Assembly: GCA_946623765.1 (NCBI GenBank)
Contig: CAMORL010000081.1
Coordinates: forward strand, 1 to 7,313
Direction of reading: 5' to 3'
Origin: an uncultured Clostridia bacterium
GTDB taxonomy: Bacteria > Bacillota_A > Clostridia > Christensenellales > CAG-138
DNA: 7,313 bases
Shown: positions 1 through 6,700 of the stretch, one piece after another
Layout: each line of letters begins with the position of its first letter
How positions within the stretch are numbered: position 1 is the stretch's first letter
Notes under the pieces: model-generated
Told to the model about the DNA's origin: nothing
Seen by the model: only the letters and a program-made list of their open reading frames with translations
The model's database searches: none
Translations under genes and position numbers: made by a program

Positions 1-297
1 GTTCATGCGGCGGAGCCATTCCATCTGGTTCTCGGCTTTCAGGCGCTCGGTGACGCCTTCCAAAGGTGCCATTTTAGAAACCGTGGCTTCGATCTGCTCC
101 CTTGCCGTGCGGTCGATCTCCAGAAGATGATCGGTCAGTTTGCCGGAGAGGACGAGGGCGGTCAGTGTGCCGTCGTGCCGCTGCTCCAGGAAACGCTTCC
201 GCATCCTGCCGTACTTGCCGATGGGTGTGTCGGGCGCGGGATCGAGGACCAGATTCGGGATCTGAATGTTACCGACCGTGGTATATGTGACGTTCAT
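1..297 (-). CDS. tnpV: TnpV family transposon-encoded protein, partial (copy 1)
   Basis: This is the first 99 residues of a TnpV-family protein, read on the minus strand from ATG at 297-295; the C-terminus lies beyond the window edge. The frame is open throughout. A strong ribosome binding site (AAAGGAGG on the minus strand, about 306-313) sits just upstream and fixes the start. Family features visible are an N-terminal VTYTTVGNIQIPNL stretch, GKYGRMRKR near residues 28-35, LVLSGKLTDHL near 48-58 and KAENQMEWLRRMN at the end of the visible part. It matches the second copy in this window (6221-6574) at 79 of 99 residues by hand count. TnpV proteins are named from clostridial Tn4451-type elements, but their biochemical role is not established. 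No recombinase gene is visible next to it here. It is divergent from the cobalamin-regulated operon. Confidence 0.85.
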   Translation of the reverse strand, partial: MNVTYTTVGNIQIPNLVLDPAPDTPIGKYGRMRKRFLEQRHDGTLTALVLSGKLTDHLLEIDRTAREQIEATVSKMAPLEGVTERLKAENQMEWLRRMN

Positions 298-492
298 TTT
301 GATACCTCCTTTAATGAATCCGATGGACTTCGCGCGGGGGCTGCTTTCGCCGGACGGAAGTATGCGTTCCGAGCAGGATCGGCAGATGAATCTTTGCATA
401 CTCCAGCACTTCCCTCTCAACGGGAGGCGGACGATATGGTATTCAGGATCTTTTTGCGGTGTGAATGATAGATCCTGCAAGATCAATGGGGG
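298..492. other. Divergent intergenic region upstream of tnpV copy 1
   Basis: This stretch carries the tnpV ribosome binding site (minus strand) and a 50-bp block at 367-416 that is repeated upstream of the second tnpV. It also has a perfect 8-bp inverted repeat CAGGATCT/AGATCCTG at 444-451 and 470-477, ending 15 bases before the -35 box of the riboswitch promoter. The inverted repeat could be an operator or a weak terminator; nothing in the sequence decides between them. I see no further gene with good support. Confidence 0.5.
367..416 (-). repeat. Conserved 50-bp block upstream of tnpV, copy A
   Basis: This block matches 6644-6693 at 44 of 50 positions without gaps. It lies at exactly the same distance from its tnpV start codon (70 bases) as the other copy. 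The flanks further upstream diverge abruptly. On the minus strand both copies keep the same 34 codons open, ending in a stop 14 bases before the tnpV start. The frame in phase with tnpV is also open in both. Confidence 0.7.
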
Positions 493-879: not shown

Positions 880-1185
880 ATGCTGACACTGAATCGAATC
901 AAGGACAGCGACAACGTTGTCTACGGCAAGGATGAGGACCTCATTCCGACGCTTTCCAAATATCTGCAGATTTCCGTTCTCGGGGAAAAGATCAGGAAGT
1001 TTCGCGAAGCGCCGGTCAAGGAAGGCGTGATACTGCGCGGCGCAAGGCGCACGAGCGCGCTGATGTTCATTCCGGATCTGTATTTCGACGACGATCTTGT
1101 CATGGGCGGGAACGTCTGGCTGTACCTCGGCGACATGCAGCCCGCTTACTGCATCTACGTCCCTTGGACGGACAACAGGGAATAA
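880..1185 (+). CDS. Uncharacterised 101-aa protein, first gene of the cobalamin operon
   Basis: I do not recognise this protein. The start is ATG at 880, with GGAG at 867-870 as ribosome binding site. A longer reading from ATG at 778 would run through the riboswitch terminator and is unlikely. The protein has no signal peptide or membrane helix and looks like a soluble cytoplasmic protein. Visible points are a charged N-terminal half (KIRKFREAPVKEG, about 38-50), the stretch RGARRTSALMFIPDLYFDDDLVMGG (about 53-77, given here only as composition: basic, then hydrophobic, then acidic), and a hydrophobic, aromatic C-terminal part ending YVPW. One cysteine (C91) is present and there is no obvious metal motif. 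It lies 40 bases before the CbiR-like gene and is the first gene controlled by the riboswitch, so a role in corrinoid handling is plausible but only by association. Confidence 0.75.
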   Translation: MLTLNRIKDSDNVVYGKDEDLIPTLSKYLQISVLGEKIRKFREAPVKEGVILRGARRTSALMFIPDLYFDDDLVMGGNVWLYLGDMQPAYCIYVPWTDNRE

Positions 1186-1225: not shown

Positions 1226-2182
1226 GTGAAAACACAGATCAATCTGACAACCTGTTCCTGCGATCTGGATCGGTTTGCTTCGCAAAGGGAGCTGTATGAT
1301 CTGCTCGGGGATGACGGCATCGAGCTGACGTGTTTTGAAGACGACGTGCGTGGCGTCGTGCCGAAGGACCGGGTGACCGGCCTGCACATGAGCTGCCTGC
1401 CGTACTGGGTCGAGCTTTGGCGCGGCAATCTTGACACCTGCATCCGCGAGTTTGACGATCTCGGGACCGTGTGTGCTGTGTTCGGCGGCGATACGCCGGA
1501 CGCGCTGCTCCGGCATTATCAGAGAGACCTCGAAAACGCTGCACGATACGGCGTCGAATACATGGTCTTTCATGTCTGCGACGGCTCCTGTGAGGAGACC
1601 TTCACGGGAAAAAGCCGCCATACCGACGCCGAGGTAATCGACGCGGCGGCGGACCTTCTGAACGAGCTGTTCCGGAACGTAACGGACGGACCGTGGCTGC
1701 TTTTGGAGAATCTGTGGTATGCGGGACTCACATTCACCGATCCGGAGATGACGGAAAGGCTTTTAGAACGCGTCAGGTATCCGAAGACCGGTCTGATGCT
1801 CGATACGGGGCATCTTCTGCACACCGATCCCGATCTTCTGACACAGGAGGAAGGCGTGCGCTATATCCATGAAATGCTGGATCGGCACGGCGATCTTTGC
1901 AAGCATATCCGCGGCGTGCATCTGAACCAGTCCTTGACCGGTTCGATCATCAAAGAGACGCAGGCGCACCAGCCGAAGCTGCTGCCGACCTATGCGGAAC
2001 GCAGCGAGCAGCTCTTCCGCTACGTGTTCTCCATCGACCGCCACGAGCCGTTTACCTGTAAAGGCGTGAAGGAATTTGTCGAACGCATTGCGCCGGACTG
2101 GCTGACCTATGAACTGATTTCGAACGATCTTACGGAACACCGCGCGCTTTTGAACGCGCAGAGGGCTGTATTCGTACCATGA
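1226..2182 (+). CDS. cbiR: TIM-barrel phosphodiesterase, probable cobamide-remodelling enzyme CbiR
   Basis: This is a 318-aa member of the AP endonuclease 2 / xylose isomerase-like TIM-barrel family. The start is GTG at 1226, five bases after GAGGAGG (1214-1220); in-frame ATG at 1097 lies inside the previous gene and has no support. Residues that line up in order with the nine metal ligands of endonuclease IV are H54, H116, E161 (LLLENL), D193 and H196 (LDTGH), H232 (GVHLNQS), D271 and H273 (DRH), and E296 (LTYEL); the DxxH and DxH spacings are kept. CbiR, described from Akkermansia muciniphila, belongs to this superfamily and hydrolyses the phosphoester in the cobamide nucleotide loop, so that a different lower ligand can be built on. 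Riboswitch control and the B12-type transporter downstream favour CbiR over a sugar isomerase or DNA repair enzyme. No signal peptide; acts in the cytoplasm. Confidence 0.75.
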   Translation: MKTQINLTTCSCDLDRFASQRELYDLLGDDGIELTCFEDDVRGVVPKDRVTGLHMSCLPYWVELWRGNLDTCIREFDDLGTVCAVFGGDTPDALLRHYQRDLENAARYGVEYMVFHVCDGSCEETFTGKSRHTDAEVIDAAADLLNELFRNVTDGPWLLLENLWYAGLTFTDPEMTERLLERVRYPKTGLMLDTGHLLHTDPDLLTQEEGVRYIHEMLDRHGDLCKHIRGVHLNQSLTGSIIKETQAHQPKLLPTYAERSEQLFRYVFSIDRHEPFTCKGVKEFVERIAPDWLTYELISNDLTEHRALLNAQRAVFVP

Positions 2183-2226: not shown

Positions 2227-4278
2227 ATGAAACAGACAAAGAAACTCTGGGCGATCCTGATCGCGGCAGTCCTGCTGCTTTCGGCGTTTGCCTGTAGCAA
2301 ACCGGCAGAGAAGCCGGCGGAGCCGACAGCGGCGCCCGTTCAGCCCGCCGAAAAGACCGATGAAGAGCTCGCGGCGGAATGCGCCGCACTGATCGACGCG
2401 ATCTATGTGCAGGAGCGTACGGACGAGACCGACGCGCAGTGCGCGGCCGCCAAGGCGGCATGGGATGCGCTGACCGATGCGCAGAAGGAACTGGTTGCGG
2501 GTGAGGAGGCCGATCCCGATTACTTCGGAAGAGATACCGGCGACGCGTCGAAGGACGATCCGAAAAACGCGGACGGCATCGGCGAGAACGAATTGCTTGT
2601 CGTGAGCTTCGGCACGTCGTTCAATGACAGCAGAGCCGAGGACATCGGCGGCATTGAAGCGGCGCTTCAGGCTGCGTATCCGGATTGGTCGGTGCGCAGA
2701 GCGTTCACCGCGCAGATCATCATCAACCATGTGCAGGCGCGTGACGGCGAGTTCATCGACAACATGGATCAGGCGCTCGAGCGTGCTGTCGCAAACGGCG
2801 TCAAAAACCTCGTGATCCAGCCGACGCATCTCATGCAAGGCGCGGAATACGATGAGCTTTGCGAGGCGGTCAAAAAGTACGAAGACAAGTTTGAGAGCGT
2901 TCAGGTCGCGCTGCCGCTTCTGGGCGAAGTCGGCACGGACGCGACGGTCGTCAATACGGACAAGGGCGTTGTTGCAAAGGCGATCACGGCGGAAGCGGTG
3001 AAGGCCGCCGGATATGAGAGCCTTGAAGCTGCGGAAGCGGACGGCGTTGCGTTTGTATTCATGGGACACGGCACGTCGCACACTGCAAAGGTCAGCTACA
3101 CGCAGATGCAGAACATGATGAACACCCTCGGCTACAGGAATGTGTTCATCGGCACGGTGGAAGGCAAACCGGAAGAAACCGCTTGCGAAGAAGTCATCAA
3201 GACGGTCAATGCGGCGGGTTATACCAAAGTCATCCTTCGTCCGCTGATGGTCGTTGCGGGCGATCATGCAAACAACGACATGGCGGATCCCGAGGATCCC
3301 GAATCCTGGTATTCCATGTTCAATGCCTCCGGTCTCTTTACGGAGATCACCTGCCAGATCGAGGGCCTCGGCAGAATCGCTGATGTACAGGCACTGTATG
3401 TTGCGCATGCCGGCGCGGCTTTGAAGCAGGTCGAGGGCATCAAACTGGTCGACATGAAGGGCCACGAGGTTACGCTCAAAAAGCCCGCGGAGCGCATTGT
3501 GGCGCTGACCGCGTCCGATTGTGAGATCGTCTTTGCGCTCGGCGCGGGGGATCTTCTGGTCGGCAGAGGCGAGTACTGTGACTATCCTGCAGAGGTCTTT
3601 GCAATTCCGTCCGTAGAATCCGGCGGCAATACGAACATTGAACAGATCCTTGCGCTCAATCCGGACGTCGTCGTCATGAGCAGCATGGCGCAGACCGAGG
3701 AGCAGGTCAAGCAGCTGGAGGACGCGGGCGTTGCAGTCGTCGTCAGCGACGCGCAGGATATCGAGGGCGTCTACACGGCAATCGAACTGCTCGGAGGGCT
3801 GCTCGGCAAGGATGCGGAGGCGGATAAAATCATTTCCGATATGAAAGCGGGCTTTGCGGAGATCGAGGCGAACAAGCTGGACGGCACGCAGACGGTGTAC
3901 TTCGAAGTCTCCCCGCTGCAGTGGGGGCTCTGGACGGCAGGCACCGGCACGTTCATGAATGAGATCGCGGAGATGGTCGGTCTCAGGAACTGCTTCGGCG
4001 ATCTTTCCGGTTGGGCGCAGATCTCCGAGGAACAGGTGCTCGAGCGCAACCCTGACTACATAGTGACGATCACCATGTACTGGGGCGAGGGCCCGACGCC
4101 GGAGGAGGAGATCATGTCCCGTCCCGGCTGGGAGAACATCACGGCAGTCCAAAACGGCGCGATCCTGAATCTCCAGAACAACGAGCTTTCCCGCCCGATT
4201 CCGCGACTTGCGGATGGCGCGAAGATGCTGTATGATTTTGTCATGGAGAAGATGGCAGCACTTCAGCCCGCTGCGTAA
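2227..4278 (+). CDS. cbiK-btuF: Lipoprotein fusing a CbiK-like cobaltochelatase domain to a BtuF-like ABC substrate-binding domain
   Basis: This 683-aa protein has a lipoprotein signal peptide (basic start, hydrophobic 8-22, lipobox AFAC with C23) and a Pro/Ala-rich linker to about 42. A short helical module with AAWDALTDAQKELV at 77-90 resembles helical repeats in clostridial surface proteins. Residues about 121-398 match anaerobic sirohydrochlorin cobaltochelatase (CbiK): VVSFGTSFNDSR (125-136), QPTHLMQG with H201, LPLLGE with E234, FMGHGTSH with H281, VEGKP, and AGDHANNDMAD (344-354). H201, E234 and H281 are candidate metal ligands, E234 being the least sure. Residues about 405-680 form a complete class III substrate-binding protein, with NIEQILALNPDVVV (E472) and ISEEQVLERNPD (E602) in the places of the BtuF glutamates that dock onto BtuC. 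The chelatase part should face outward with the binding domain. Likely role: corrinoid or tetrapyrrole capture, with possible cobalt insertion before import. Confidence 0.85.
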   Translation: MKQTKKLWAILIAAVLLLSAFACSKPAEKPAEPTAAPVQPAEKTDEELAAECAALIDAIYVQERTDETDAQCAAAKAAWDALTDAQKELVAGEEADPDYFGRDTGDASKDDPKNADGIGENELLVVSFGTSFNDSRAEDIGGIEAALQAAYPDWSVRRAFTAQIIINHVQARDGEFIDNMDQALERAVANGVKNLVIQPTHLMQGAEYDELCEAVKKYEDKFESVQVALPLLGEVGTDATVVNTDKGVVAKAITAEAVKAAGYESLEAAEADGVAFVFMGHGTSHTAKVSYTQMQNMMNTLGYRNVFIGTVEGKPEETACEEVIKTVNAAGYTKVILRPLMVVAGDHANNDMADPEDPESWYSMFNASGLFTEITCQIEGLGRIADVQALYVAHAGAALKQVEGIKLVDMKGHEVTLKKPAERIVALTASDCEIVFALGAGDLLVGRGEYCDYPAEVFAIPSVESGGNTNIEQILALNPDVVVMSSMAQTEEQVKQLEDAGVAVVVSDAQDIEGVYTAIELLGGLLGKDAEADKIISDMKAGFAEIEANKLDGTQTVYFEVSPLQWGLWTAGTGTFMNEIAEMVGLRNCFGDLSGWAQISEEQVLERNPDYIVTITMYWGEGPTPEEEIMSRPGWENITAVQNGAILNLQNNELSRPIPRLADGAKMLYDFVMEKMAALQPAA

Positions 4279-4287
4279 AAGGAGTCT

Positions 4288-5319
4288 ATGAAACGGATCG
4301 GCGAGCATTTCGGAGAATGGATCGCGATCTTCGCACTCGTTACCCTGTGCGTGTTTTTCGCATGCGTCTGCATCGGCAGCGTTTCGATCCCTTTGAAGGA
4401 CACCGTTCGCGTCATTTCGGACGCGATCCGCGGGGTCCCGTCCGAAAAAGCGTATGCGCTCGCCCGATCCGTGATTGTGCCGATCCGGCTGCCGCGTGTG
4501 CTGTGCGTGGCGCTGGTCGGCGCATCGTTGTCTCTTGCGGGCGCAAGCATGCAGGGACTTCTCAAAAACCCGCTTGCGGACGGGTCCACAATCGGCGTGT
4601 CCTCCGGCGCGTCGCTCGGCGCGGTCATTGCAATCGCGTTCGGCATCACGTTCCCGAAGCTGCCGTTTGCCGGGACAATGATCATGGCGATCCTGTTCGC
4701 ACTCGGCTCGTTACTAATCATTTTAGGGCTTGCATGGCGCTTGGACTGCTCGCTTTCGACCAATACAATCATTCTGATCGGCGTAGTCTTCTCGATGTTT
4801 GCGTCCAGCGTCATGAGCATAATCATCACGTTTGCGTCCGATCATCTCAAAAGCATCACGTTCTGGACCATGGGCAGTCTGCAGGGTGCGAGCTACCGCA
4901 ACGCCGCAGTGCTCGCGGGAACGTTTTTGATCGCCGGTACGGTGCTGCTGCTGAACGCACGCGAGCTGAACGCCTTTGCGATCGGCGAGGATAACGCAAG
5001 GCAAATCGGCGTCAATGTGCGCCGTGTGCGGCTCACGGTGCTGATCGCAGTTGCGTGCCTGATCGGCGTTTGCGTGTCGATCGGCGGCACAATCGGCTTT
5101 GTGGGGCTTGTTACGCCGCATATGGTGCGCATGATCGTGGGCCCGAATCACAAGCGTCTGCTGCCCGCATCCCTGTTTTCCGGCGCAGTCTTTCTGATGC
5201 TCGCGGATCTGGCGGCGCGGTCGTTGTTCTCCCCGCGTGAGCTGCCGATCGGCGTGGTAACGAGCGTGATCGGCGCGGCGGTGTTCGTGGCGATCTATTA
5301 CCGCGCGAGAAGGAGGTAG
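4288..5319 (+). CDS. btuC: FecCD/BtuC-family ABC transporter permease, probably cobamide import
   Basis: This 343-aa, strongly hydrophobic protein has about nine or ten membrane segments (first at about 11-31, last at about 320-338), the usual size and layout of BtuC/FecD permeases. Family motifs are RLPRVL (67-72), whose two arginines correspond to BtuC arginines that meet the binding-protein glutamates; GASMQGLLKNPLAD (85-98); IGVSSGASLGA (102-112); IGEDNARQIGV (232-242), the cytoplasmic coupling region; TIGFVGLVTPH (268-278); and ELPIGVVTSVIGA (318-330). The start at 4288 is preceded by AAAAGGAG and lies nine bases after the stop of the binding-protein gene. The family also transports haem and siderophores; the riboswitch and neighbours make a corrinoid the best guess. 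Confidence 0.9.
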   Translation: MKRIGEHFGEWIAIFALVTLCVFFACVCIGSVSIPLKDTVRVISDAIRGVPSEKAYALARSVIVPIRLPRVLCVALVGASLSLAGASMQGLLKNPLADGSTIGVSSGASLGAVIAIAFGITFPKLPFAGTMIMAILFALGSLLIILGLAWRLDCSLSTNTIILIGVVFSMFASSVMSIIITFASDHLKSITFWTMGSLQGASYRNAAVLAGTFLIAGTVLLLNARELNAFAIGEDNARQIGVNVRRVRLTVLIAVACLIGVCVSIGGTIGFVGLVTPHMVRMIVGPNHKRLLPASLFSGAVFLMLADLAARSLFSPRELPIGVVTSVIGAAVFVAIYYRARRR

Positions 5320-5323
5320 GGGC

Positions 5324-6085
5324 ATGCTGGAAGTGGAACACCTGACGGTGCAGTACGGCGCGTTTGCCGCCGTAAGAGATTGCTCCTTTACCGTTTCGGA
5401 CGGGCAATGGCTGATGATCGTCGGTCCGAACGGCGCCGGAAAAACGACCGTTCTGAACGCGATCGCACAGGGCGTGCCGTATTCCGGTATAATCCGGTTT
5501 GACGAAAAGGATCTCAAAAAAACAGATGCTGCAGCACGCGCCCGCTCGATCGGCGTTCTGTCGCAGAACCATTATGTCGGGTATGCCTTCTCCGTCGAGG
5601 AGGTCGTTCGTCTCGGACGGTTTGCGCACAGGGGCGGATTGTTTTCTTCACACAGGAAGGATGACGAAAAAGCAGTGGAGGAGGCGCTGGAGCGTACGGG
5701 CTTGACCGCGCTGCGTCAGCAGTCCGTGCTGACGCTGTCCGGAGGGGAACTCCAGCGAACCTTTCTTGCACAGGTGTTCGCGCAGAATCCGCGCTATCTG
5801 ATGCTGGATGAACCGACCAATCATCTGGATCTGATCTATCAGAAACAGATTTTTGCGCTGATCGCAGATTGGCTCAAAACCCCCGGTCGGGCGGTGGTGT
5901 CCGTGGTCCACGATCTTTCACTTGCAAAAGCGTACGGCACACAGACGCTGCTGCTGCATCACGGCAATACGGTTGCGCTCGGCGAAACGCAAGCTGTGAT
6001 GTGTCCCGACAACCTGAACGCAGTTTATGAGATGGACGTCGCTTCCTGGATGCGAACAATGCTGAAGCAGTGGAATAATATGTAA
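5324..6085 (+). CDS. btuD: ABC transporter ATP-binding protein, BtuD/FecE type
   Basis: This 253-aa protein is a complete nucleotide-binding subunit. It has Walker A GPNGAGKTT (34-42), Q-loop glutamine Q81, signature LSGGE (138-142), Walker B YLMLDEP (158-164) with NHLD following, and switch histidine H196. It powers the permease encoded just upstream. The ribosome binding site AGGAGG (5311-5316) ends where the btuC stop codon begins (5317-5319), and ATG follows four bases after the stop, so the two genes are translationally close-coupled. Length and motif spacing are normal for iron-siderophore/B12 importers. The stop at 6083 is followed by a terminator hairpin at 6172. Confidence 0.92.
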   Translation: MLEVEHLTVQYGAFAAVRDCSFTVSDGQWLMIVGPNGAGKTTVLNAIAQGVPYSGIIRFDEKDLKKTDAAARARSIGVLSQNHYVGYAFSVEEVVRLGRFAHRGGLFSSHRKDDEKAVEEALERTGLTALRQQSVLTLSGGELQRTFLAQVFAQNPRYLMLDEPTNHLDLIYQKQIFALIADWLKTPGRAVVSVVHDLSLAKAYGTQTLLLHHGNTVALGETQAVMCPDNLNAVYEMDVASWMRTMLKQWNNM

Positions 6086-6171: not shown

Positions 6172-6205
6172 ATAAAGCCCGAAGCGTGCGCGCTTCGGGC
6201 TTTAT
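6172..6205. terminator. Bidirectional intrinsic terminator between btuD and tnpV copy 2
   Basis: ATAAAGCCCGAAGCG (6172-6186) and CGCTTCGGGCTTTAT (6191-6205) form a perfect 15-bp stem with a TGCG loop. The A-rich and T-rich ends give a U-rich 3' side in both directions. It lies between two convergent genes, 86 bases after the btuD stop and 15 bases after the tnpV stop, so it can serve both. Confidence 0.85.
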
Positions 6206-6220: not shown

Positions 6221-6574
6221 TTATTCGCCGTAGACGATCTCGCGGAGGACAAGCTCTTCCGCACGGGCGCGGAGGTTGTTCATGCGGCGGATCCATTCCA
6301 TCTGGTTCTCGGCTTTCAGCGCTTCGGTGACGCCTTCGGCGGCTGCCATTTGGCGGACCGTGGCTTCGAGCTGCTCCCTTGCCGTGCGGTCGACGTCGAG
6401 CAGGTGCTCGGTCAGTTTGCCGGAGAGGACGAGGGCGGTGAACGTGCCGTCGTGCTGCTGTTCCAAATAGCGCTTTCGCATCCGTCCGTACTTGCCGATG
6501 CTGTCCTCCGGTTGCGCGTCCATGACCAGATTCGGGATTTGGATATTGCCGACCGTCGTATAAGTGACGTCCAT
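6221..6574 (-). CDS. tnpV: TnpV family transposon-encoded protein (copy 2, complete)
   Basis: This 117-aa protein is a full-length TnpV, read from ATG at 6574-6572 with AGGAGGTG about eight bases upstream. An in-frame ATG at 6676 would add 34 residues, but the internal start has the better ribosome binding site and matches the family N-terminus (MxVTYTTVGNIQIPNL). Visible conserved parts are GKYGRMRKR (28-35), ALVLSGKLTEHLLDVDRTAREQL (47-69, quoted as two runs: ALVLSGKLTEHL and DRTAREQL), GVTEALKAENQMEWIRRMN (81-99), and RARAEELVLREIVYGE at the C-terminus. It is probably a mostly helical, charged, small cytoplasmic protein. Function is unknown; the name reflects its discovery on clostridial mobile elements. 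It is convergent with btuD and shares the terminator at 6172-6205. Confidence 0.88.
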   Translation of the reverse strand: MDVTYTTVGNIQIPNLVMDAQPEDSIGKYGRMRKRYLEQQHDGTFTALVLSGKLTEHLLDVDRTAREQLEATVRQMAAAEGVTEALKAENQMEWIRRMNNLRARAEELVLREIVYGE

Positions 6575-6700
6575 GTTCTTCACCTCCTCAATGAATGCAA
6601 TGCACCGGGCGCGGGGTACGGGTTCGCGGGATCGAAACGCGGATTCCGAGCAGGATCGGCAGGTGCAATCTTGCATACTCCAGCACGTCCCTCGCCACTA
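6575..6700 (-). other. Upstream region of tnpV copy 2 with conserved leader
   Basis: On the minus strand this region carries the tnpV ribosome binding site and, at 6644-6693, the 50-bp block shared with 367-416. Two frames stay open in both copies. One ends at 6588-6590, 14 bases before tnpV, and would give 34 codons starting R(E/D)VLEYA and HLPILLG. The other is in phase with tnpV, starts at ATG 6676 and shares CRSCSE with copy 1. Neither has a convincing ribosome binding site. No -35/-10 pair is evident. Confidence 0.5.
6644..6693 (-). repeat. Conserved 50-bp block upstream of tnpV, copy B
   Basis: Partner of 367-416, with 44 of 50 positions identical, in the same orientation and at the same 70-base distance from the tnpV start codon. 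Confidence 0.7.

Follow-up and report, generated by a model that had tools for sequence, protein, structure and literature searches.

A predicted surface lipoprotein joining a CbiK-type chelatase domain to a BtuF-type binding domain in a cobalamin-riboswitch-led import locus of an uncultured Clostridia bacterium

Gene row and domain structure of the fused protein

The window, a stretch of 7,313 nucleotides from an uncultured Clostridia bacterium, holds a single co-directional row of genes that, according to the ORF list and the sequence, runs from a cobalamin riboswitch through a terminator-like hairpin (Table 1). The riboswitch scores above the RF00174 gathering threshold of 31.5 bits and lies about 1.5 kb 5' of an ORF that is uninterrupted for 683 codons and encodes a fused protein, with two further co-directional ORFs in between. 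The fused gene is separated from the permease gene by 9 bases and the permease gene from that of the ATPase by 4 bases. The fused gene in a row with the permease and ATPase genes under a cobalamin riboswitch had been described in an earlier reading made from the letters alone (hereafter the sequence-only reading).

The first gene after the riboswitch has no NCBIfam match, and the longer frame at 778-1185 has no Pfam match. The TIM-barrel protein encoded next gave no match in a PDB sequence search; an identity as CbiR was considered and is unsupported (NCBIfam score 17.7 bits, cut-off 105), the protein falling far below both the CbiR and the Nfo cut-offs.

Table 1. Features of the window, with coordinates and supporting evidence.
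Feature	Position	Strand	Evidence
Cobalamin riboswitch RF00174	520..722	+	cmscan 108.3 bits, E 4.1e-27, full model 1-189
101-aa ORF, first gene after riboswitch	880..1185	+	ORF list and sequence
TIM-barrel protein AP_endonuc_2, GTG start	1226..2182	+	PF01261 E 9.7e-13 (longer frame from 1097)
Fused lipoprotein (predicted), 683 aa: signal, small helical region, CbiK domain, BtuF-type domain	2227..4278	+	
Predicted lipoprotein signal, Cys23 at 2293-2295	2227..2295	+	By inspection; similar signals in relatives
CbiK-type chelatase domain, residues 123-398	2593..3420	+	Pfam, PDB sequence search, Foldseek
BtuF-type substrate-binding domain, residues 403-683	3433..4275	+	Pfam, alignment, Foldseek
FecCD-type permease	4288..5319	+	PF01032 E 4.1e-89
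ABC ATPase	5324..6085	+	PF00005 E 6.4e-31
Terminator-like hairpin closing the gene row	6172..6205	+	15-pair stem, pattern scan only

The N-terminus of the fused protein, MKQTKKLWAILIAAVLLLSAFAC, has with Cys23 the appearance of a lipoprotein-type signal on inspection, in agreement with the lipobox proposed earlier, and export is predicted. The signal is followed by a stretch rich in Pro, Ala and Glu and then by a small helical region, after which comes the first large domain. This domain matches the CbiK family (PF06180) with an E value of 2.3e-66 over profile positions 3-260 of 262 (224 bits, cut-off 26). A PDB sequence search with this half returned Salmonella enterica CbiK (1qgo; E 2e-37), FetB (9b86) and periplasmic CbiK (2xvx), and the same three entries are the best Foldseek matches of its AlphaFold2 model, with a target-normalised TM score of 0.91 on 1qgo; the two halves were modelled separately, with pLDDT values of 90.4 for the CbiK half and 94.0 for the binding half. 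E207, H281 and H347 (codons at 2845, 3067 and 3265) align with E89, H145 and H207 of S. enterica CbiK, the catalytic residues of its active site. The fused protein falls below the NCBIfam equivalog cut-off for sirohydrochlorin cobaltochelatase (182.7 versus 400 bits). Two relatives in which a non-exported CbiK is fused to a CbiO-like ATPase likewise stay below this cut-off, at 286 and 281 bits.

The second domain matches Peripla_BP_2 at residues 424-649 (Pfam E 2.2e-37). Its sequence matches 4m7o and BtuF in the PDB, and the best Foldseek matches of its model are 4m7o, 4hn9 and BtuF (5ysc), with heme-binding proteins among the structural kin. E472 and E602 (codons at 3640 and 4030) are invariant in an alignment of 36 sequences and are aligned to the BtuF glutamates; we take them to be counterparts of the two residues by which BtuF docks on BtuC. 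The second half, the permease and the ATPase belong to the same superfamily as BtuF and BtuCD-F, but the fused protein differs from BtuF in its fusion to a chelatase and in a score far below the curated BtuF equivalog cut-off (97.2 versus 234 bits). The linker between the domains comprises a few residues, the last CbiK helix ending at about residue 400 and the first strand of the binding domain starting at about 405. Profile searches and structure prediction, the checks put forward with the sequence-only reading, thus bear out its assignment of a complete CbiK-like domain at about 121-398 and a complete BtuF-like domain at about 405-680: both domains were matched significantly, and the models of the separate halves match 1qgo and 5ysc.

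Origin and rarity of the fusion

Two separate genes could have been joined by an assembly or read-through artefact. A database protein from a JGI contig (P0003) has the same length of 683 residues, the same architecture and the same junction, and its two substitutions (residues 294 and 591) fall elsewhere. Since P0003 carries the identical fusion, an assembly error is unlikely; moreover, the reading frame continues across the junction, which coincides with a domain border, the signal of a periplasmic binding protein (PBP) is absent there and composition is alike on both sides, with a third-position GC content of 72% in the CbiK half, 78% in the binding half and 77% in the permease gene. In favour of an artefact, P0003 is the sole fused relative among the matches listed in the protein searches, in which about 8,000 candidates sharing most words were scored and at most 120 best matches were considered for each, and no CbiK-PBP fusion occurs in the 80 loci fetched. 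An artefact is very improbable on this evidence and was rejected. A stand-alone twin of the CbiK half also exists (P0121): it is 404 residues long, shows one difference in the first 130 residues and ends just past the CbiK domain. P0003, P0121 and the similar third-position GC across the junction favour, as far as sequence comparison goes, a true, recent and rare gene fusion.

A second CbiK-PBP fusion was suspected in a 797-aa frame of another genome (G043). The corresponding locus (L091) shows CbiK and PBP as adjoining separate genes, 33 bases apart. Exported CbiK systems are widespread; among the matches listed and the 80 loci the fusion itself was found only in P0003.

Exported CbiK proteins in other genomes

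The closest kin of the CbiK half, among the matches listed, are CbiK proteins with predicted export, mostly from gut and rumen Clostridia according to the titles of their records. The earlier view of CbiK as a free enzyme, normally cytoplasmic and in Desulfovibrio periplasmic, proves too narrow in view of this family and of the lipoprotein IhtB/FetB of Porphyromonas gingivalis. At least two CbiK segments are present in 118 of the 120 best-ranked proteins; because the ranking favours tandem CbiK proteins, this is not a fair frequency, and tandem copies occur in five of the 80 fetched loci. The Glu and two His of the active site are retained in all 85 CbiK domains of the 80 loci according to the alignment, so the exported domains look catalytically competent, and the alternative raised by the sequence-only reading, that the chelatase fold is now a binding module alone, appears weakened.

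Each of the 21 loci tested of the 80 fetched has a cobalamin riboswitch, scoring over the gathering threshold, ahead of its surface CbiK gene; the row at L091, in which the order is permease, ATPase, CbiK and PBP, is also riboswitch-led, giving 22 of 22 tested in all. The usual order is CbiK, NEAT-like protein, PBP, FecCD permease and ATPase, and all four partner types lie downstream in the same direction at 46 of the 61 loci (of 80) with at least 4.5 kb of room. The NEAT-like assignment is to be read with the Pfam scores, every one of which is under the cut-off (best E 1.1e-6). CbiK is fused to the NEAT-like domain at 23 of the 80 loci, the NEAT-like domain to the PBP in 20 ORFs, and the ATPase to CbiA in eight cases and to CbiD in two (three ATPase fusions were verified by Pfam); cbiA or cbiD is present at 30 of the 80 loci. 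An unfused counterpart of the window is found at locus L022, where a CbiK lipoprotein gene (71% identical) with its own riboswitch faces genes for a PBP, a FecCD permease and an ATPase (65%, 66% and 61% identical, in that order), which form a row of their own under a second riboswitch.

The genomes of 40 of the 80 loci (L001-L040), all chosen for carrying surface CbiK, were searched for corrin and tetrapyrrole genes. CbiD is present in 38 of the 40, and neither CobN nor a CbiX outside the CbiK frames was found in any of them. HemC was found in 13 (one partial), SUMT over the cut-off in 14, a strong SirC-type match (E value at or below 3e-20) in 15, and a CbiL that exceeds its cut-off in 26. 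HemC, SUMT and strong SirC matches are all absent from 24 genomes, 23 of which have CbiD; named isolates of this type are Faecalibacterium longum (G006), Gemmiger formicilis (G007), Pseudoflavonifractor MSJ-37 (G018) and Kineothrix MSJ-39 (G026). In 21 of these 23 no CbiK was read as non-exported, while the other two (G010 and G038) have a further, non-exported one; a second frame in G002, which is a lipoprotein, and a fragment in G029 that lacks its N-terminus and has a surface-type sequence were not counted as non-exported. CbiL exceeds the cut-off in 13 of the 23 and has no match in 10, so that in these the known pathway would not be directly open to cobalt-sirohydrochlorin. The 10 genomes either import a later intermediate or use a different methyltransferase, unless CbiL escaped the profile search.

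A less biased sample consisted of 150 genomes of the family to which G022 belongs, in which CbiD, HemC and CbiK were sought. Many of the genomes analysed are draft assemblies and may be incomplete. Exported and non-exported CbiK were classed by reading N-termini in 70 fetched loci, two of which (L169 and L173) lack the N-terminus. In six genomes (G069, G089, G123, G165, G051 and G167) a longer stretch was used to read the start or signal; all six proved signal-bearing, and this additional reading bore out the classification. Neither class was assigned to G122, whose weak CbiK-like protein bears a signal, or to G138 and G136 (below cut-off), and G119 (a fragment) and G109 were counted as non-exported. 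Surface CbiK is present in 25 of the 150 genomes, and CbiD accompanies it in 23 of the 25 compared with 30 of the 125 without it (Fisher test 1.5e-10, kinship ignored). Among the 53 CbiD-positive genomes, HemC is found in six of 23 with surface CbiK and 26 of 30 without (1.1e-5, kinship ignored), and non-exported CbiK in eight of 23 and 24 of 30, respectively (0.0016, kinship ignored). Exceptions occur in both directions: four CbiD-positive genomes lacking HemC have no surface CbiK (G106, G141, G166 and G182), and the six noted above combine it with HemC. On a CbiD tree the two traits change at least 12 and at least 13 times, and a sign test of surface CbiK against HemC, underpowered with only five independent pairs on well-supported branches, is non-significant.

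The binding half has a different distribution. Of the 150 genomes, 22 carry a window-type binding protein (at least 53% identity; two of these proteins are fragments), and 15 of the 22 lack CbiD. In loci fetched from 14 of the 22, a cobalamin riboswitch lies directly 5' of its gene in seven and no CbiK gene is nearby in any. By itself the binding half is probably a corrinoid importer, and the fusion may serve corrinoid capture: the CbiK domain, irrelevant as an enzyme, would bind corrinoids or cobalt-tetrapyrroles at the surface and feed a B12-type importer. With 15 of the 22 carriers lacking CbiD, plain corrinoid import is a serious rival, to which the seven riboswitch-led loci and the presence of BtuF among the closest kin of the binding half also lend weight. 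The retention of all three active-site residues in each of the 85 domains speaks against it, as does the association of surface CbiK with cbiD and with the absence of HemC, which simple B12 scavenging does not predict; this explanation is considered possible, though on the unlikely side.

Comparison with known systems and proposed function

The closest known system is that of Porphyromonas IhtB/FetB, the two names presumably denoting one protein, with IhtC-E, and this kind of system is known in outline. In the available text of its description, P. gingivalis IhtB is a CbiK-like lipoprotein encoded beside a PBP, a permease and an ATPase (PMC10913741). The window shares this set, its lipoprotein being predicted by inspection; P. 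gingivalis, however, makes its chelatase-like protein and its PBP as two proteins and has a TonB receptor as well, whereas in the window chelatase and PBP are fused. The parts of the P. gingivalis sources considered propose iron/heme or Mn-porphyrin roles and carry no mention of a cobalamin riboswitch, and P. gingivalis is listed as lacking the steps to precorrin-2 in the portion of Shelton et al. (PMC6461909) that was available.

By analogy with FetB/IhtB, the fused protein might serve porphyrin metal exchange or heme use, the metal of heme being removed or swapped and the metal or the ring imported. FetB is a top match in both the PDB and the Foldseek search, the gene set resembles IhtB-E as far as its description extends (PMC10913741), and FetB inserts manganese into protoporphyrin according to the accessible text of a review (PMC13402209); the NEAT-like partners, all below the Pfam cut-off, and the heme-binding proteins among the kin of the binding domain point the same way. 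The cobalamin riboswitch at 22 of 22 tested loci, the linkage to cbiA and cbiD with the ATPase fusions to their products and the co-occurrence with CbiD all run counter to such a role, which is judged improbable.

The CbiK fold is found outside the cytoplasm, as predicted for the window protein, in Desulfovibrio vulgaris CbiKP (2xvx), but that one is a free single-domain protein with 30% identity to the CbiK half in the Foldseek alignment. S. enterica CbiK (Foldseek E 6e-22) shares the fold and the three catalytic positions; it is a cytoplasmic single-domain enzyme of a complete pathway, unlike the window domain, which is fused and predicted to be exported. A B12-element controls cbiK-cbiL and btuCDF in Desulfovibrio, as stated in the part of PMC545781 consulted. 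A chelatase homologue in gut-bacterial salvage has a parallel in HmuS of Bacteroides, although its family differs: the available text of PMC12583661 presents it as a class I, CobN-like de-chelatase that takes iron from heme in a membrane-fraction-dependent manner. In the literature surveyed (titles and abstract openings, mainly open-access), neither surface CbiK systems in Clostridia nor a CbiK-BtuF fusion is described, nor is the clostridial NEAT-containing row or its tie to truncated corrin pathways.

In a further alternative, the CbiK domain traps Co2+ and so provides the metal for uptake, either as the free ion or together with a carrier. Periplasmic CbiK has been crystallized with cobalt (2xvz), and the two CbiO-like ATPase fusions of non-exported CbiK would fit such a role. 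The importer is, however, of the FecCD/BtuC type, the known substrates of which are large metal complexes, and cobalt capture would not predict truncated tetrapyrrole synthesis; it is regarded as quite improbable.

With the domain identities, gene order, riboswitch and retained active site as observed, the explanation considered best, with a probability of roughly 0.4, is that a lipoprotein outside the cytoplasmic membrane, in which a CbiK-type chelatase and the binding protein of a FecCD importer are one molecule, captures a tetrapyrrole, probably loads it with cobalt and feeds it to the importer. An importer under B12 control, together with a chelatase of predicted export and a corrin pathway that has no sirohydrochlorin supply of its own, suggests this surface capture and probable loading. 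Low B12 opens the riboswitch, as is established for such elements, and the importer would be made when adenosylcobalamin is scarce. The CbiK domain would then bind an external sirohydrochlorin-type tetrapyrrole and insert Co2+ outside the cytoplasm; the product could move across the few-residue linker to the adjoining BtuF-type domain, which by homology would dock on the permease, with the ATPase driving import; and the cobalt-tetrapyrrole would enter the corrin ring pathway or corrinoid salvage. Of the earlier proposal that chelation outside the cell is coupled to import, the coupling is supported by gene order, by the fusions between neighbours and by the co-occurrence with truncated corrin pathways, whereas metal loading outside the cell is a putative step.

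A more specific version, offered tentatively, is that one step of B12 synthesis takes place outside the cytoplasm: gut Clostridia without the uroporphyrinogen III route may load an external sirohydrochlorin-like ring with cobalt by means of surface CbiK and import it through a riboswitch-controlled FecCD system for the remaining cbi enzymes. Since chelatase and binding protein form one molecule in the window, the product would in that case be handed on directly. The data likewise suggest that carriers of the unfused relatives take up, and may metal-load, starting material for the B12 ring outside the cell.

The fusion in the window is thus real, though rare, and belongs to a widespread import system that has a surface chelatase and is under B12 control; the broader genomic pattern is more interesting than the fusion itself. 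In the part of Shelton et al. (PMC6461909) available, tetrapyrrole precursor salvagers, mostly Firmicutes, have genes for the corrin ring but lack those for early tetrapyrrole precursors, a gene content that surface-CbiK carriers resemble; dependence on ALA was tested there, and that text names no transporter or surface chelatase. For such catalogued corrin-making bacteria the question is which precursor is taken up and by which transporter, ALA in the tested species aside. The B12-controlled importer and its surface chelatase, which in the sample occur mostly in such genomes, are a concrete candidate that is testable in cultured isolates, and the fusion offers a single protein in which chelation and hand-over could be measured together. 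If the proposal is true, metal insertion would be a biosynthetic step performed outside the membrane, and cobalt-tetrapyrroles would count among the nutrients traded in the gut.

Fusions and domain layout among CbiK relatives

A CbiO-like cobalt-importer ATPase carries a non-exported CbiK at its C-terminus, as a single fused protein, at two of the fetched loci (L093, genome G031, and L094, genome G021), an inside counterpart of the window's CbiK–BtuF-type fusion. Importer ATPases also occur fused to the corrin-pathway proteins CbiD and CbiA (table), and the database protein P0002, a relative of 1102 residues, carries a tandem array of three CbiK domains. Long additional regions separate the signal from CbiK in the exported proteins of L244, L245, L246, L247 and L248. 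Since those of L244 and L245 contain, by inspection, SLH-repeat-like sequence, cell-wall anchoring may differ among exported CbiK proteins.

A profile search of the 40 genomes of loci L001–L040 (G001–G040) gave no CbiL match reaching the curated cut-off in 14; SUMT is present in four of these (G012, G015, G019 and G023).

Surroundings of the window's fusion

Homologues of the two ORFs between riboswitch and fusion were not found at the 80 CbiK loci (E 1e-5). The entire gene row is enclosed by two direct repeats, 81% identical over ∼420 nt, whose TnpV-like genes share 71% amino-acid identity, the upstream copy being incomplete and crossing the window edge. These repeats may mark the gene row as a mobile cassette.

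Features of the window and of fetched loci
Feature	Locus	Position	Strand	Remark
Orphan 101-residue protein ORF	window	880–1185		between riboswitch and fusion
TIM-barrel protein ORF	window	1226–2182		between riboswitch and fusion; only weak CbiR/Nfo similarity
Direct repeat, copy 1	window	1–421		TnpV-like gene within, minus strand
Direct repeat, copy 2	window	6278–6698		TnpV-like gene within, minus strand
Importer ATPase + CbiD	L104	6484–9141	−	single reading frame
Importer ATPase + CbiA	L009	4715–7012		single reading frame
Importer ATPase + CbiA	L056	10177–12549		single reading frame
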